Assembly (NCBI GenBank): GCA_020444325.1
Contig: JAHLLD010000006.1
Location: 124,001 to 188,000 of the forward strand
Length of the DNA stretch: 64,000 bases
Direction: 5' to 3'
From: a bacterium
Lineage (GTDB): Bacteria > Bacteroidota > Ignavibacteria > SZUA-365
Shown: one piece after another, positions 51,595 through 59,369 of the stretch
Position numbering within the stretch: position 1 is the first letter of the stretch
How the letters are laid out: each line of letters opens with the position of its first letter
The notes under the pieces: model-generated
What the model saw: the letters and a program-made list of their open reading frames with translations, nothing else
Told to the model about the DNA's origin: nothing
The model's database searches: none
Made by a program: the position numbers and the translations under genes

Positions 51595-53292
51595 TCACTT
51601 GCGCAGGTAAAATGGCCCCAGCGCCATGCTGTCTACTTCAGTCTTGCGAAAGAGATGCAGTGCTTCCTGTGGCGTACGCACGATGGGTTCACCTGCCACG
51701 TTGAGCGAGGTGTTCAGCACCATGCCGTGTCCCGTCATTGTTTTCAGCCGCATGAGCAGCGCGTGCAATGAAGGATTGTCGTCCCGCGTTACCGTCTGCA
51801 GCCGACAGCTGCCGTCGACATGACACACCGCGGGGAACACTTTCCGGTACTGCGGTTTGAAGTAGAATACTTTCAGCATGAATGGGGATATGCCACCGTT
51901 CTCAAAATACTCGTCGACATCCTCCGCGAGAAGTGCAGCGGCAAAAGGACGAAATGGCTCGCGGTGTTTGACCTTGCGGTTCAATATGTCTTTCATGGAT
52001 GGATGGAGTGGAGATGCAAGAATGCTGCGGTTGCCGAGGGCCCTGGGACCAAATTCCATTCGGCCATCAAAGCGCGCAACCACACGACCTGCCACGATAT
52101 CTTCGGAAATCACCTGTGTGATATCATCGGCACGGGAATATGCAGTTTCTGCATAATGGAGTGCGTCCTTCAGTTGCGGTTCATCGAATGACGTCCCGAG
52201 GAATGCATGACGCAATGGAGTACGTCTGAACGTGGGGTCCATTCGGGAGGATACATGCAGCGCCGCTCCGAGAGATACCCCGTTGTCACCGGCAGCCGGC
52301 TGAACGAAAAGATCAGGAGTCATTTCGCGTTGCAGCCTTCCATTGAGGACGGAGTTCAGAAACAATCCGCCGGCGGCTGCCAGGGGACGCGATCCCGCAT
52401 GAGGCAGTTCCCTGCGAAGCAGCGTGAATACCGTTCGCTCGACACAGGACTGCAGGGAACAGGCGAGATCCTGATGCGAAGTGTCCAACTCTTCTCCTCT
52501 CATTCTGGGTTTCATCTTCGTGCGCACGGACCATTCCTCACTGAACTGTCCATGCCGGGCCTGATGATAATCGAGAATTCCCGTCTTCAGGCGAAACCCA
52601 TCTCCGTTCGTTCCCATCGCGCAGGTTTCATCAAAGAGCAGCCGGAACCGGTCCTTTCCGAACGAAGCAAGCGCCATGACTTTCCCCTCGTCACTGGTGG
52701 GCCGAAATCCGAGGAACGCCGTGACCGAAGCATAGAGGTGCCCCAGTGAATGCGGATAGCTGACTGCCATGCGGGTTTGCAGGTCATTGCCGACCCCGGA
52801 GAACAGTGAGAAGGTCGACGATTCGCCAACGCCGTCGGCCACCGCGACGTCTGCTTCTTCGTATGGAGAGGCGAGAAACGCGCTGGCAGCATGTGCGAGA
52901 TGATGGTGCACATAGCGGATGCTGGCCCTGGTCGGACCGAAGCGGGTTTCAAACCCATGCCGCAACCGAATGATATTGCGAATACCCTGAAGATAATTCC
53001 CACCCCTGTGCAGTTTGCTCTGAAGAGCAGAGGGACGGCGCAGACTGTCGCGCAGCGATGCCGAAATGCGTGTCCCCCATCCGAGCCAGGGGTTCCAGCC
53101 GACGGCGATTGCGTCGATGTCGCGCATCTGCATTCCACTGATGCGAAGGCATTCATCCACGGCCAGCCAGGGCATTCCTTCAAAATGCTTGATACGATTC
53201 AGACGCTCTTCTTCCACGGCACAGAGAACTTCCCCACCGGACACCAGCGCTGCTGAAGCATCGCAAAACACACTGAGTCCCAGAATGTTCAT
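51595..53292 (-). CDS. NodU/CmcH-type carbamoyltransferase
   Basis: A 565-residue enzyme of the family that carbamoylates hydroxyl groups of small molecules via a carbamoyl-AMP intermediate. The N-terminal Kae1-like half shows MNILGLSVFCDASAALV, AVEEERLNRIKHFEGMP, RYVHHHLAHAASAFLASPYEEADV and AVADGVGES, with the metal-binding HHHLAHA. The C-terminal half has AAAGGLFLNSVLNGRL, FVQPAAGDNGVSLGAAL, ARFDGRMEFGPRALGNRSILASP and MVLNTSLNVAGEPIV. Length is typical. Its start overlaps the PP-loop gene stop (ATGA), making it the last gene of a four-gene operon with a methyltransferase and an adenylating enzyme. Confidence 0.93.
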   Translation of the reverse strand: MNILGLSVFCDASAALVSGGEVLCAVEEERLNRIKHFEGMPWLAVDECLRISGMQMRDIDAIAVGWNPWLGWGTRISASLRDSLRRPSALQSKLHRGGNYLQGIRNIIRLRHGFETRFGPTRASIRYVHHHLAHAASAFLASPYEEADVAVADGVGESSTFSLFSGVGNDLQTRMAVSYPHSLGHLYASVTAFLGFRPTSDEGKVMALASFGKDRFRLLFDETCAMGTNGDGFRLKTGILDYHQARHGQFSEEWSVRTKMKPRMRGEELDTSHQDLACSLQSCVERTVFTLLRRELPHAGSRPLAAAGGLFLNSVLNGRLQREMTPDLFVQPAAGDNGVSLGAALHVSSRMDPTFRRTPLRHAFLGTSFDEPQLKDALHYAETAYSRADDITQVISEDIVAGRVVARFDGRMEFGPRALGNRSILASPLHPSMKDILNRKVKHREPFRPFAAALLAEDVDEYFENGGISPFMLKVFYFKPQYRKVFPAVCHVDGSCRLQTVTRDDNPSLHALLMRLKTMTGHGMVLNTSLNVAGEPIVRTPQEALHLFRKTEVDSMALGPFYLRK

Positions 53293-53999
53293 ACCCCCAC
53301 CCCCTCTCCAGCGTCAAGCTGCCCGATGGCCTCACCCAATAGCTGTTCCGCCAACCGCGGCATACGTGCTTTGCCGCGAATGGGACGATAGTAGAGACGC
53401 GCGTGCGCATGAATCACGAGTCCAACATAGCAGCTGTGCTGCGTGGAGAAATACACATGTTCCTTTTTCGTGGCATGCATGGTCGCCATCCCCTGGGCTT
53501 CACATTGCAGGTCGGTGTTCTCTTCATCGAATATTACCGCTTCATACTGCATGTTCTGCCTTTCATAGAGCTGCTGCATGACACCGATATATCCCCGGGT
53601 CTGTGCCGGGAACAGCGGTGATGATTCCTTATTGGCACCATCGTAAGTCTGTGCTATCCCATGTTCGCGGTTGTATGCAATCGTCCTGCAATGCATCGCC
53701 AGCTTGCACGATCCACACAGCCAGGGCACGTAAAAGCTGCGGTAGCGCGGGATGCGCCGCTGCCAGTCCGCTCTGTACAGCTGTCGATAGAGCTTCCCGA
53801 TCTCTTCCTCATGAGGAATGATGCGATGCTCGCCAAAGCGCTGCTGCAATTCACGGGTGACGACCTGATGCCGTCCCATGCGGCTCATCAGTCCGTGATG
53901 ATAGGTCAGCAGGTGCACCCTCTCGGCAGACTTCAATGCACGAAGCACCGCCAGTGTAGAATCTGGTCCTCCTGAAAACAGTACGGATATATCACTCAT
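53289..53999 (-). CDS. PP-loop ATP pyrophosphatase (QueC/ExsB-like)
   Basis: A 236-residue protein with the PP-loop motif VLFSGGPDSTLAVLRAL at the N terminus, as in N-type ATP pyrophosphatases that adenylate a carboxyl, carbonyl or nucleobase group. A cysteine cluster LCGSCKLAMHCRTIAYN (residues ~103-119) could be a metal or iron-sulphur site; its spacing differs from classical QueC. Later: IAQTYDGANKESSPLFPAQTRG. The start at 53999 is favoured by GGAGG about 5 bases upstream; a second ATG at 54002 is adjacent and the frame runs far upstream without a signal. Coupled to the carbamoyltransferase by ATGA overlap. Substrate unknown. Confidence 0.87.
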   Translation of the reverse strand: MSDISVLFSGGPDSTLAVLRALKSAERVHLLTYHHGLMSRMGRHQVVTRELQQRFGEHRIIPHEEEIGKLYRQLYRADWQRRIPRYRSFYVPWLCGSCKLAMHCRTIAYNREHGIAQTYDGANKESSPLFPAQTRGYIGVMQQLYERQNMQYEAVIFDEENTDLQCEAQGMATMHATKKEHVYFSTQHSCYVGLVIHAHARLYYRPIRGKARMPRLAEQLLGEAIGQLDAGEGVGV

Positions 54000-54018
54000 C
54001 ATTCCTCCTTCCTGGTTG

Positions 54019-54705
54019 TTATCGGGGATTCTGTCCCTGTTGAGATTGCTGCGCGGTGAGGTGAAGTACGCATGAGGGATTGAGCGGCATGCGGGTACAC
54101 ATATCCACCTCGTACCCGAAGACGTCGCAGCGCCGACGTACTTCCTGCTCATCAAGATAGGCGGCGTTGAAGCCGAGAAGCAGAAGGCCCTGCGGACGCA
54201 GGCGCGGCCTGGCATCAGCGAGCAGGCGCTCAATAAATTCGTAGCCCGATTCCCCGCCACACCAGTCCGTTTCCGAAGGGTGCATGCGGTCTATCTCCCG
54301 CGACCTGCCATCCGCACGCGGAATATACAGTGTGTTTGAAAACACCAGGTCGTACTGCCCGGTAAATGCGGCAAACAGATCGCTCTCGATCACGGACACA
54401 CTGGACGCCGTACCTGCGACTTCCTGGCTGGCGGATTGAACGTACGTGGGATTGATGTCGCCCGCATCCACCGTACATGTGCAGAGGCGCCTGGCGATGC
54501 GCGCAAGCAGCGCATAAGGCCCCGTACCGATCTCCGCGACACGCATTCCGCTGCGCAGGCGCAGGCGCAGTGCACGCTGCAGCACCAGTGTCGTCATGTC
54601 CCAGTGAATCCGTTCACTGCCCTGAAGCCGCACGCCGAAAAGCAATGCCGTAAGCATCGCATTTCTGCGCAGCCCCCTGTTCAACACCTTCCTTGCAAGT
54701 CCCAT
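54019..54705 (-). CDS. HemK/PrmC-like SAM-dependent methyltransferase
   Basis: A 228-residue methyltransferase. The N-terminal helical part (RKVLNRGLRRNAMLTALLFGVRLQGSERIHW) precedes motif I VAEIGTGPYALLARIA and an acidic DAGDINPTYVQSA. The substrate-loop segment reads YDLVFSNTLYIP, resembling the [ND]PPY motif of PrmC-like N-methyltransferases but with NTLY. The C terminus is APLRPQGLLLLGFNA-type. It lies 19 bases upstream of the PP-loop gene start and 95 bases downstream of the large synthetase gene, in the same operon. Target unknown; a pathway intermediate is plausible. Confidence 0.86.
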   Translation of the reverse strand: MGLARKVLNRGLRRNAMLTALLFGVRLQGSERIHWDMTTLVLQRALRLRLRSGMRVAEIGTGPYALLARIARRLCTCTVDAGDINPTYVQSASQEVAGTASSVSVIESDLFAAFTGQYDLVFSNTLYIPRADGRSREIDRMHPSETDWCGGESGYEFIERLLADARPRLRPQGLLLLGFNAAYLDEQEVRRRCDVFGYEVDMCTRMPLNPSCVLHLTAQQSQQGQNPR

Positions 54706-54800: not shown

Positions 54801-57800
54801 TCACTCCGGCGATGCTGCTTCCTCGAGGAGCAGGCGAAATTCCCCGTCACGTGAATCGGCAGTGAATCCTGCATGCATGCAGAATGGTGCGAGGTAATGC
54901 GGCGCGCGAAGCGATTGAATGTCGGAGGCCTTGAGCTGCAGGGCGAGGTCCCGCAGCAGAGCATGCCCATAACCGTTGCCGCGGAGGCTCTGCTCGACGA
55001 TGACCGCCTGCAGCTCAGCTTCGGATGTGGGCAGGACGGAAAATACAGCACCACCAGCGACTCTCTGCCTGTCGTCGATAAGCGCCAGGTATCTCAGGTT
55101 TTCACCTGACGGAACGGGAAGCCGTTCCTGCACAAGCAGGGCGAGAATGCTTCCTGTCTCGGCGGCGGACAGTGGTTCACGAATCAGCATCTCCCCGCTT
55201 CCGGTGGTTTCCATGGGATGCTCGACAACGGCGGATTTTCTTCCCGCGATCTGCGTCCTCACGAGCTGCAGGTCTGCTCCCTCCGCTGCGGGGAACACCA
55301 TGCGTAAAAACTGCTCGCGCATGCCGCCGGCGGGAATCTGCTCCTGCAATTCGGCCAGTTCAACGCTGCGCGTAACGGCGAAACTGCTGTCCCTGTGCAG
55401 GCGCAGGATAAGTTCATCGAGCTGCTGTCCGCAGTCGCCTGGAAGCCCACCGAGCACCGTCCGCCGCGTCACAAACCACCGCGCGGCGGTGCCGTATCGC
55501 ATGACACCATACAGATCGAGCACGTGACGGAGGTAATCCTCCCCGCGTTCCTCCACGAGCAGCGGATACGTGTGCGCCCAATCGCGCCAGCAGGCGACGG
55601 CATTCCGTACCGCAATAGGTGGATTGTAACGCTGTGCACGCTGCTCCAGTTCGTAACGGATCAGTGCGGCAGTCTTCATATCGAGGTGCACTCCACGCGC
55701 ATCCAGCATCTCATCCACATGCTGCAGCAGTTCCGTCGCTTCCTGTTCACCAAGCACCTCAGCGCAGGCATCAATGACCCAGGAAGGCTGCAGGCGGGAT
55801 GTATTCCAGCGCTCTGCCGCACGCCGGAGAATATCAAAGAGTCCTTCAATGAGACAGTGCGTCCCGTCGCAACTCCGCCATCCTTCGACCGAGGCGAGCA
55901 CCGCTCCCTCGCGATAGCGCAACAGTGGTACGATGACATTTTCCGCTTCAATGGCGCCGGGCAGCAGTTCATGACTGCTATCGCGCCAGCCGCGTATCCA
56001 GGCAGACAAACCGGATATCCACCAGCGACGCAGCTCTGCTTCATCGGCCTGCGCCGCACCGCGATCCATAAACTCCGCCAGGCTGCGACCCGCAGATTCC
56101 GCGAGAGCAATGGCCCCTGCTTCCGGCATGAAGCTCCCGAAGCGCGGGAGCGCTGCATGGCGCACAGGAGCACCGGAAATCCGCAGAAGCCGCAGCACAT
56201 CCTCGTGCATCGCTTTCTCGCGGTAGCGGTCATCGAGCAGGAGACGGAAGGTAAATCTTCTCCCCGTGCGTGTCTGCAATATGACGCGGAAAGATCGCGA
56301 GCCGCTTCTGGACGAAGGCAGCGCTTCAATCAGGATCTGATCGAGCACCATCGCTTCCGAACCGAGTCCGTCAATACCGAAAAGCATGAGAACCGTAAGG
56401 GAGAGAAACGGCGTCTCAGCGAGCAATACGCGCAGCCGATCACGATCCGCGCCGGCGGCGTCCGGCATTGCATCAAGCGCAGCATCGAGCAGGTGCAGGA
56501 GACTGTCACGTCTGGTGGATGACGCTTCCTGCCTGCGGACGTAGACATCCTTCAGCGCATAGAACAACTCTCCTGCCCTGTCACGCATCTCATCGATCTG
56601 CATCCACAGCGCCAGTTCCGCGCGCACGTCGTAGACGAAGGACGCATCCCGCGCGGCCAGGCGGTAGAGGAGCACGAGAAGATGGTTGTACACGCGTTGT
56701 TCCGCTGCAGAGGGATGCGGCTGCTGCTGACGGTAACTGTGCAGACGGCGGCGCAGAGCTGCCAGCCGCTCACCGCGCATGTCGGGCGAAGCGATACGGT
56801 CGAGGGCGGGACCATCGAGGAAACTGCGCTCGGACCGCATGAACGCATTGTACGGTGCGGCATCCTCTGGCATTGGATCGAACAGCAACAGTGTTTCGTA
56901 GGCGCGGATGCGCACGGCCTCATCCGGATGCCAGGCACAGGCACCGAGGCGTTTGCGGAGCAGGGACAGATGCCGGTGCGGTATCGACTCAAGCGCGGCG
57001 CCGAGATCATCGAAGAGCTGCAGTGCCAGAGGGGAATCCGCAGTGAAGGTAATGGACAGCATGCGATGCAGCTGCTGCAGCACGGTGCCGATACTGGCCT
57101 TCGACGACGCGTCCACTCCCACCTCGGTGCGATCAGCGCCGTCCGACATACGCACAGCATCGACAGGCCATTGCAGCGGGATCACCGCTTCGACTTCATC
57201 GAGCGGGACATCCCACCCCTCGTGACAGGGGAGGAAACCGGTCAATGCTGCATTCCCTGTCCAACCATACGGCTGCCTGCAGAGGCGTCCGAGATCCACG
57301 GTCGCCGAACGCAGCTGGTATTCGAGATCACCAATTCGCCAGTGTCCCTCATTCCTTCCGGCCGCGACGGGGAGCAGTGCGCGGGTGGCCGCGTTATAGA
57401 GTCCCTCAGGACGCAGTTGCAAATCCCGTTCAGTGCACCCGAGATCCCGCAGCATCCACAACGGCAGACGCAGGCGCAGGCCGGCAATCTCGAAGCGCAG
57501 CGCGCGTTCCTGGTACATGCGCGCGATCTCCGCACTGTAGTTCTCCCTGATGCGCTTTCGATTGAGCGAGCCCTTGGGCGTGAGCTCACCGCGGGATTCG
57601 GAAAAGTCTTCATCGAGCAGCGTGAATTCGAGAATGCGTTCGTATACGGGAAGCTCCCTGTTCACGGCACGGATGATCTCGTTGAAATATCGCTCCCGCT
57701 GCTGCGTGGAGGCAAGCTTTTCGAGAATGGGAGCGGACGCATCGAGAACGATCAGCAGAGTATTATGCGCGCGTCCATCACCGGCCAGGAAACAACGCCT

Positions 57801-59369
57801 GATGCCGGGCACATCCTGAAAACGGTTCTCGACCGCCAGAGGAGCAATGGTCTGTCCCCTGCTGTTCTTGTAGATATCCTTCACACGGTCAACAATGCGG
57901 TAATGCCCGCTCTCACTCTGTGCGAACAGGTCGCCTGTTGGAATCCACCGTCCATGCAGCGACTCCCCATCCCCGGATTCTTCCGACACCTCGGTTGCGT
58001 TTTCCAGCGGAGTGGCCACGTAGGGACCGCGCATTTCCATCTCGCAGTTTTCGCGCAGGCGCACGTCGATGCCGGGCAGAGGGATGCCGACGGAGTCGGC
58101 TTCATACGCACCGGGCGGTGTCATGAGTATGCCGCCTGTCGCTTCCGTCATTCCGAAACCACTGCCGAGCGCCACACCATGCTGATGGAAGTAGCGAAAG
58201 ACCGATGGACTCAGGTACCCGGCTGCCGAGAGTCCCCAGCGCAATTTCCCTCCACAGGCCGCAGCAAGCGTATCGAAGCGGTCCGCTTCCTCCCGCAGCT
58301 CGACCCAGCGCTGGGGGATGCTGATCAGTCCTGTCGGCTGCACCTCGCGCATACGTGCGAACAGTGCTTCACGACCGGAACTGCCGACGAACACGTATCG
58401 TCCTCCCCAGAACAGCATGCCCTGCAGTTCGAGAAAACGTCCGAAGGTATGAAACAGCGGCAGGTAAGCGGCGAGCGTTTCATCGTCGCCGACATCAGGC
58501 AGCGCCGCCGCGCGCGCGAAGCGCTTGCTCACCATGTTCATCTGCGAGAAGGCAACGCCTTTGGGGAGTCCGGTAGAACCCGAAGTAAACATGACGGTCG
58601 AAGTACCCGTATACGGAATGTCCCTTGCCGATTGCCCGCCTTCGCCAACCGGCAGACTCCTTTCCCGGTTTTTGGCGATGAAGGCATCGAACAGTTCGAC
58701 ACCTTGCTCTTCCGGATTTCCCGCGCCGATGAACACGGGGAGCAGCTCGAGTCCGTATTCCGCCATGACGCGGAGCAGGAGCCGCAGCCGCTCGTTGGTG
58801 TCGACGAACACGAGGTTGATACGGAGCTGCTGCAGAATGGACGCAAGCGATGACTCGTCGAGATGCACGCTCAGTGGCGTATTGAGAATGCCATGTACCA
58901 GGCAGGACAGATCGCACAGTGCTCCTTCAAGCGAATTGGCGGTGAAGAGTGCGACACGGGGATGCGTCCCCGGTGTCCCTGCACGCATTGCATGCGCAAT
59001 GATACCGCATTGTTTCTCCACCTGAGCGAAACTCAGTCTGCGTCTCTCGCCGTCTCCCTCCTCGAGGTAACAGGCGGTCCCATGACTGCGTGCACGGTCG
59101 GCTAGCAGATCTCCCACCCCATAGCGGAGCCGGAGCAGGACCGCGCGCACCGTCTTTTCATAAATACCGTATCGTTGTTCCTGGGTGAGCGCGCACCGGA
59201 ATTCCGCGCCCGCAGCGGCGGAAAGGAATTCGCGCAGCGCCGCATTCAAACGATCCGTCGCATTGAAATGCGGGAGGGCGGAGTGGATCAGGTTCAGCAT
59301 ACGAGCTGGAATATCCGGATCCCGCTGCCGCTGATATTGCTGAAGGAGGTCCTCAATCGCTGCGGGCAT
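54801..59369 (-). CDS. Adenylate-forming synthetase fused to an unassigned helical middle and a GNAT acetyltransferase
   Basis: A 1,522-residue cytosolic protein. Residues ~85-620 are an AMP-binding (acyl-CoA synthetase-like) domain: VMFTSGSTGLPKGV (261-272), GSGFGMTEATGG, GRWIPTGDLF, YRIVDRVKDIYKNSRGQ and late lysine KGSLNRKRI. Residues ~620-1370 are mostly helical with HEAT-like pieces and no domain I recognise; the part LQTRTGRRFTFRLLLDD...DVLRLLRI...PEAENVIVPLLRY could be a degenerate kinase-like fold, a weak guess. Residues ~1380-1522 are a GNAT domain (VIVEQSLRGNGYGHALLRDLA, acetyl-CoA loop). No carrier protein domain is seen. It leads an operon with a methyltransferase, PP-loop enzyme and carbamoyltransferase. 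Confidence 0.88.
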   Translation of the reverse strand: MPAAIEDLLQQYQRQRDPDIPARMLNLIHSALPHFNATDRLNAALREFLSAAAGAEFRCALTQEQRYGIYEKTVRAVLLRLRYGVGDLLADRARSHGTACYLEEGDGERRRLSFAQVEKQCGIIAHAMRAGTPGTHPRVALFTANSLEGALCDLSCLVHGILNTPLSVHLDESSLASILQQLRINLVFVDTNERLRLLLRVMAEYGLELLPVFIGAGNPEEQGVELFDAFIAKNRERSLPVGEGGQSARDIPYTGTSTVMFTSGSTGLPKGVAFSQMNMVSKRFARAAALPDVGDDETLAAYLPLFHTFGRFLELQGMLFWGGRYVFVGSSGREALFARMREVQPTGLISIPQRWVELREEADRFDTLAAACGGKLRWGLSAAGYLSPSVFRYFHQHGVALGSGFGMTEATGGILMTPPGAYEADSVGIPLPGIDVRLRENCEMEMRGPYVATPLENATEVSEESGDGESLHGRWIPTGDLFAQSESGHYRIVDRVKDIYKNSRGQTIAPLAVENRFQDVPGIRRCFLAGDGRAHNTLLIVLDASAPILEKLASTQQRERYFNEIIRAVNRELPVYERILEFTLLDEDFSESRGELTPKGSLNRKRIRENYSAEIARMYQERALRFEIAGLRLRLPLWMLRDLGCTERDLQLRPEGLYNAATRALLPVAAGRNEGHWRIGDLEYQLRSATVDLGRLCRQPYGWTGNAALTGFLPCHEGWDVPLDEVEAVIPLQWPVDAVRMSDGADRTEVGVDASSKASIGTVLQQLHRMLSITFTADSPLALQLFDDLGAALESIPHRHLSLLRKRLGACAWHPDEAVRIRAYETLLLFDPMPEDAAPYNAFMRSERSFLDGPALDRIASPDMRGERLAALRRRLHSYRQQQPHPSAAEQRVYNHLLVLLYRLAARDASFVYDVRAELALWMQIDEMRDRAGELFYALKDVYVRRQEASSTRRDSLLHLLDAALDAMPDAAGADRDRLRVLLAETPFLSLTVLMLFGIDGLGSEAMVLDQILIEALPSSRSGSRSFRVILQTRTGRRFTFRLLLDDRYREKAMHEDVLRLLRISGAPVRHAALPRFGSFMPEAGAIALAESAGRSLAEFMDRGAAQADEAELRRWWISGLSAWIRGWRDSSHELLPGAIEAENVIVPLLRYREGAVLASVEGWRSCDGTHCLIEGLFDILRRAAERWNTSRLQPSWVIDACAEVLGEQEATELLQHVDEMLDARGVHLDMKTAALIRYELEQRAQRYNPPIAVRNAVACWRDWAHTYPLLVEERGEDYLRHVLDLYGVMRYGTAARWFVTRRTVLGGLPGDCGQQLDELILRLHRDSSFAVTRSVELAELQEQIPAGGMREQFLRMVFPAAEGADLQLVRTQIAGRKSAVVEHPMETTGSGEMLIREPLSAAETGSILALLVQERLPVPSGENLRYLALIDDRQRVAGGAVFSVLPTSEAELQAVIVEQSLRGNGYGHALLRDLALQLKASDIQSLRAPHYLAPFCMHAGFTADSRDGEFRLLLEEAASPE

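Follow-up and report, generated by a model that had tools for sequence, protein, structure and literature searches.

Known ANL synthetases either stop after the C-terminal subdomain or have a reductase or an acyltransferase attached. GNAT enzymes acting in trans are known to turn AMP-forming acyl-CoA synthetases off, and in Pat a dead synthetase domain regulates a GNAT in cis. We know of no ANL synthetase that combines a pseudokinase and a GNAT, and a pseudokinase inside an acyl-CoA synthetase has, to our knowledge, not been described. Two described systems offer a comparison. In Pat (PatZ/SePat, type I), a large N-terminal synthetase-type domain and a C-terminal GNAT share one chain, and the synthetase domain, of the NDP-forming kind, has no catalytic activity (PMC8556138). 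In the AcuA-AcsA system, a GNAT acts on an AMP-forming synthetase (PMC11255334).

The window analysed here, a 64,000-nucleotide stretch of an Ignavibacteria contig (JAHLLD010000006.1), contains on its minus strand an intact open reading frame of 1,522 residues that starts with ATG at 59369 and ends at 54801 (54801–59369); 50 genomes contain homologues of comparable length. It encodes an acyl-CoA synthetase, a putative pseudokinase and a GNAT in a single chain. The layout resembles that of Pat in its N-terminal synthetase-type domain and C-terminal GNAT, but here the synthetase is an AMP-forming PF00501 domain with intact motifs and about 750 residues, including the pseudokinase, separate the two. 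Since the synthetase domain of type I and II Pat is NDP-forming and inactive, both types are ruled out, and the fusion fits none of the five bacterial GNAT types in the review (PMC8556138). A GNAT that acts on an AMP-forming synthetase, as in AcuA-AcsA, is also one of the proposals for the fusion, although AcuA and AcsA are two proteins without a pseudokinase whereas the window protein is one chain. No description of a synthetase-pseudokinase-GNAT architecture was found in the open-licence literature searched.

We asked whether the fusion is real and where it occurs. Full-length orthologues with 63% (loci L018 and L010), 60% (L019 and L009) and 39% (L020) identity to the window protein come from several members of the organism's own family; the orthologue scan used short exact peptides from one sequence, and its reach is near relatives. 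Records named among the relatives include "Ignavibacteria bacterium BM516" and "Bacteroidetes bacterium" SZUA-365 and MAG20. Of 391 genomes of the class, 54 from five families matched a profile of residues 985–1380, always with a single copy per genome; a 55th match (genome G460, E 6e-4, in a 97-aa frame) was left out of the count. The frames holding these matches are 1,431–1,654 aa long with the exception of three of 498, 543 and 1,108 aa; in G646 and G003 the short frame reaches a contig edge and in G631 it begins close to one. Profiles of residues 624–1522 and of residues 624–985 matched the same 21 of 396 genomes, scattered across the phylum, and the shorter profile added no others. The centre was never found as a free-standing protein among the genomes searched with the 624–985 and 985–1380 profiles, and we found no relatives on plasmids (tblastn) or in two viral-contig scans.

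Apart from the three short frames, profile matches thus lie in long frames only, so every complete copy of the gene in these samples joins synthetase, centre and GNAT. Synthetase and GNAT share one chain in every relative not cut short among the genomes searched, which answers the question raised in the preliminary description of whether the two are always joined. That description had also considered that an assembly error might have joined two genes. An assembly error or a chance read-through of separate genes now has a negligible probability in our estimate, because the same architecture recurs in dozens of independently assembled genomes from several families, including four single-contig genomes (G008, G175, G276 and G333). 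Judged by sequence comparison, the one-chain fusion is real and conserved across several families of Ignavibacteria-type bacteria. In a tree of the relatives, families f1 and f20 are cleanly split from f11 and f21 with full support, and f1 forms a single clade; this fits an old, mainly vertically inherited fusion. In all six sections of the protein and in the three pairs tested, dN was far below dS, with dS near or at saturation, a pattern that indicates purifying selection on all parts of the protein in these pairs.

The AMP-forming acyl-CoA synthetase spans residues ~85–622, and the borders proposed earlier for the AMP-binding domain (~85–620) proved right. The adenylation core (residues 100–445, 58035–59072) matches PF00501 with E 1.2e-44 and the C-terminal subdomain (AMP-binding_C_3, residues 503–621, 57507–57863) matches PF23562 with E 3.7e-11, both above the cut-off, as is typical of the ANL superfamily. 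Long-chain (FadD-type) acyl-CoA synthetases and the adenylation domain of carboxylic acid reductases share this motif set and the C-terminal subdomain family. Among 24 members, the motifs TSG[ST]TGxPKG, GFGMTEATGG, TGD, DRxKxIYK and ELTxK vary little or not at all and include Lys270, Glu409, Asp480, Arg495 and Lys599. The A3/P-loop motif reads TSGSTGLPKG in the window protein (residues 262–271, 58557–58586), with T262, S263, G264, G267 and K270 in 24/24 members and G271 in 23/24. The A5 motif GFGMTEATG (residues 404–412, 58134–58160) is invariant (24/24), and the A10-like motif ELTPKG (residues 595–600, 57570–57587) contains the candidate adenylation lysine, Lys599, in all 24. Motifs A3, A5, A7 and A8 and the A10-like lysine are thus conserved; Lys599 is the putative A10 lysine, equated with it by motif. 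All strands given here are minus.

With these residues in place the synthetase should be catalytically active. The closest profiles are those of long-chain acyl-CoA ligases, luciferases and carboxylic-acid-reductase adenylation domains, and the substrate is presumably fatty acid-like or long-chain. The domain reaches no curated NCBIfam cut-off, including that of the curated long-chain synthetase model; the top NCBIfam match was PRK06187 at 129 bits against a cut-off of 476. Other acyl-CoA-ligase-like regions are present in the same genome on four other contigs (C9, C12, C13 and C14), so general housekeeping may fall to another enzyme than the fusion.

No credible Pfam family turned up between residue 622 and about residue 1370, whether the query was the window protein, one of three orthologues or any of 24 relatives searched singly. 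A clear match of the centre to a known family, which the preliminary description had named as a ground for refutation, was thus not obtained with Pfam. The centre of about 750 residues, noted at the outset as free of recognisable motifs, therefore has no Pfam assignment. It begins with a small conserved domain (residues 624–730, 57180–57500), defined in alignments by IPxWxLRxxG, WxGN and FLPCHEGWD and likewise without a Pfam match. A helical block follows (residues ~755–984, 56418–57107), predicted from low-confidence AlphaFold2 helices and HEAT-like by eye. Just before the pseudokinase, in the part corresponding to window residues ~930–985, f11/f21 members (L055–L071) conserve the stretch FRxWLGxNxxxAVDxETGEEYxWxDVIIFEE, which we do not recognise in the window clade.

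The first reading of the sequence had suggested a degenerate kinase-like fold at residues ~1000–1160, around the string AENVIVPLLRY, which we locate at residues 1142–1152. To examine the centre by profile-profile comparison, a family profile of residues 985–1380 built from 52 members was aligned by hhalign to one made from 22 bacterial Ser/Thr kinases (PF00069) of related genomes. The two aligned with Prob 80–90 and a score of 46–51 over up to 131 columns, a coverage obtained with the gap-trimmed and 24-member versions of the profile. The aligned stretch, residues ~1014–1150, takes in, in kinase order, the glycine-rich loop, beta3, alphaC, the hinge and the catalytic loop. The maximum score was 25 in 100 column shuffles and 33 in 100 shuffles of 8-column blocks, a reversed profile scored 14, and no other part of the protein and none of twelve neighbour families reached 21. 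Splitting the kinase set into halves left the register unchanged, as did restricting the family to f1 or to f1+f20. Alignments from f20 alone and from f11/f21 were weaker (Prob 3–5), yet ended at the same catalytic-loop position. The kinase-like suggestion has thus gained support.

The catalytic residues of a kinase are largely missing from the aligned region. At the beta3 position (1040–1046), Lys does not figure among the common residues of the 52 members. The HRD-Asp position, 1139, is occupied by Asn in 21, Asp in 15, Glu in 6 and Ala in 4. The degenerate catalytic loop PGAIEAENVIVP (residues 1137–1148, 55926–55961), which takes the place of HRDxKPxN in the 52-member alignment, keeps Asn1144 in 43/52 members and has lost the Lys position. 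Position 1160, assigned by hand to the DFG Asp, is Ser in 48 members and Thr in 4, that is, Ser or Thr in 52/52. With the beta3 Lys and the DFG Asp gone and the HRD Asp mostly replaced, the domain differs from bacterial Ser/Thr kinases in the three residues that mark an active protein kinase, and it is invisible to Pfam. The loss supports the assignment of residues ~985–1260 (55590–56417, C-terminal limit approximate) as a pseudokinase. The helical segment that follows (residues ~1261–1369, 55263–55589, from low-confidence AlphaFold2 secondary structure) is probably the remainder of the kinase C-lobe or a linker.

It is also conceivable that residues 985–1260 have another fold, unrelated to protein kinases, and that the profile match reflects chance or a convergent pattern. 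With E values as high as 1 allowed, none of the 24 members gave a Pfam kinase match, the alignment is limited to ~131 columns, an APH-type kinase profile gave no hhalign match to the centre, and single subclades compared with the kinase profile reached only Prob 3–55. AlphaFold models of residues 624–1522 (from 4 rows) and 985–1290 (from 3 rows) had a mean pLDDT of 41–42, and a Foldseek search with the low-confidence 985–1290 model returned no significant match; the secondary structure of the two models, of low confidence, shows three strands, a helix and then further helices, which is compatible with a kinase N-lobe and was given no weight. We nevertheless consider an unrelated fold quite unlikely, given the distance between the score of the real profile and those of the 200 shuffles, the reversed profile, the other protein parts and the neighbour families, the constant register across the two kinase half-sets and the f1 and f1+f20 subsets, and the catalytic loop as common end point of every subset. 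Weak matches to MST kinases in the PDB (E ~0.8) also overlap the stretch.

A C-terminal GNAT had been named from the start, and it was confirmed by Pfam: Acetyltransf_1 matches residues 1426–1482 of the window protein (E 1.3e-4) and GNAT families match 24/24 members. The domain covers residues 1370–1515 (54825–55262), and the best solved relatives of its profile are Gcn5 acetyltransferases (tGcn5, E 2e-8), from which it differs in being joined to a synthetase and in a changed general-base position in the window clade. Motif A (residues 1463–1468, 54966–54983) reads RGNGYG and follows the R/QxxGxG/A pattern; the Arg is found in 22/24 members, Gly1466 in 24/24, and the last position is Gly in 7 and Ser in 17, relatives often ending in GIS. 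The general-base position 1454 is Glu or Asp in 21/24 members, Gln in the window protein and Lys in two sisters, so the GNAT may be altered in the window clade. A Glu is present at 1452 on the same strand in the window protein and the two sisters (residues 1452–1454, 55008–55016); Glu1452 is a possible shifted general base in this clade.

These features bear on a scenario in which the protein is a scaffold: the synthetase alone would be catalytic, and the pseudokinase and GNAT would be ligand-binding sensors for allosteric regulation, the reverse of Pat, in which a live GNAT is under the control of a dead synthetase. The adenylation core is the best-conserved part of the protein (mean majority fraction up to 0.7–0.8, against about 0.35–0.6 in the centre), which together with the prevalence of Ser at the end of motif A, the replaced general base of the window clade and the absence of kinase catalytic residues would agree with such an arrangement. 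The invariant Gly1466 and the acidic residue at 1454 in most members are what would be expected of an active GNAT, however, and the conservation of the GNAT (~0.6) is above that of most of the centre. We regard this scaffold reading as improbable.

The gene neighbourhood differs between the families. In f11/f21 relatives, the fusion gene lies directly after or close to a citrate synthase gene in 13 of 17 loci, mostly with a gap of about 75–230 bp. The hpnC-hpnD-hpnE genes are often ahead, and CTP synthase, a TPR protein, purN and purH come after the gene in six. In L055, L056, L064, L065 and others the order is PBP1A, hpnC, hpnD, hpnE, citrate synthase and the fusion gene, continuing with CTP synthase, TPR, purN, purH, mreB and mreC. 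The citrate synthase neighbourhood is absent from f1 loci. The synteny with citrate synthase and squalene genes may be inherited gene order and not function. Directly downstream of the gene in the window (51595–54705, minus strand), a methyltransferase, a QueC/ATP-pyrophosphatase-like protein and a NodU-type carbamoyltransferase lie in a row. These three genes are not found beside the orthologues, and a biosynthetic-cluster reading was rejected for the fusion gene for this reason.

Our preferred interpretation, held tentatively and a little short of an even chance, is a stand-alone multidomain acyl-activating enzyme with a live synthetase, a pseudokinase scaffold and a GNAT that uses the acyl-CoA in cis. 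The N-terminal long-chain-type AMP-forming synthetase would convert ATP and a carboxylic acid to acyl-AMP and then to acyl-CoA. The centre, a helical scaffold and a catalytically dead kinase fold, would position the domains or sense a nucleotide or a partner. The C-terminal GNAT would then use the acyl-CoA in cis to acylate an amine, which might be a small molecule, the head group of a lipid or a lysine of a protein. A conserved one-chain fusion, intact synthetase motifs, a kinase-profile relationship with lost catalytic residues and purifying selection on all parts in the pairs tested can be read directly from the sequences; the enzyme activity, the long-chain substrate, the channelling between the two enzymes and the role of the pseudokinase are what we infer. 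We counted in favour of acyl-CoA use in cis the near-invariance of the synthetase motifs in the 24 members, the best family matches to long-chain acyl-CoA ligases and PF23562, the retention of the fusion, the low dN relative to dS, the other ligase-like regions of the genome, the tree and the kinase-profile evidence. Against it we counted the replacement of the acid at 1454 in the window clade, the derivation of the kinase fold from profile comparison only, both AlphaFold models being poor, and the similarity of the GNAT to Gcn5-type enzymes. Gcn5-type acetyltransferases use acetyl-CoA, not long acyl chains.

The last point leads to the chief rival, a self-regulating synthetase in which the fused GNAT would acetylate Lys599 with acetyl-CoA and switch the synthetase off when acetyl-CoA is high, the pseudokinase serving as a hinge or sensor. 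The model for this is the action of AcuA on AcsA and of Pat on Acs in trans: acetylation by AcuA of K549, which lies in motif A10 of AcsA, inactivates this synthetase (PMC11255334), and acyl-CoA synthetases are acylated and inactivated by Pat (PMC8556138). The invariance of Lys599 and the affinity of the GNAT profile to Gcn5-type lysine acetyltransferases speak for this model, and the adjacency to citrate synthase in f11/f21 fits control by acetyl-CoA. The Pat and AcuA examples act in trans, however, and we found no precedent in cis; the intergenic gap and the squalene, CTP and purine genes nearby leave room for a synteny that is inherited order only, and f1 loci are without the citrate synthase neighbour. 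We hold self-acetylation to be somewhat less likely than the use of acyl-CoA in cis, the sequence being compatible with both.

The family offers about 750 residues of conserved centre, mostly without an assigned fold. The fusion could, as a speculative possibility that we put well below an even chance, represent a further bacterial GNAT type beyond the five described, in which the GNAT would use self-made acyl-CoA under pseudokinase control to acylate an amine or the synthetase domain of the same protein. A chain that unites a live-looking synthetase with a pseudokinase and a GNAT would make it possible to study synthesis, transfer and control within one polypeptide.
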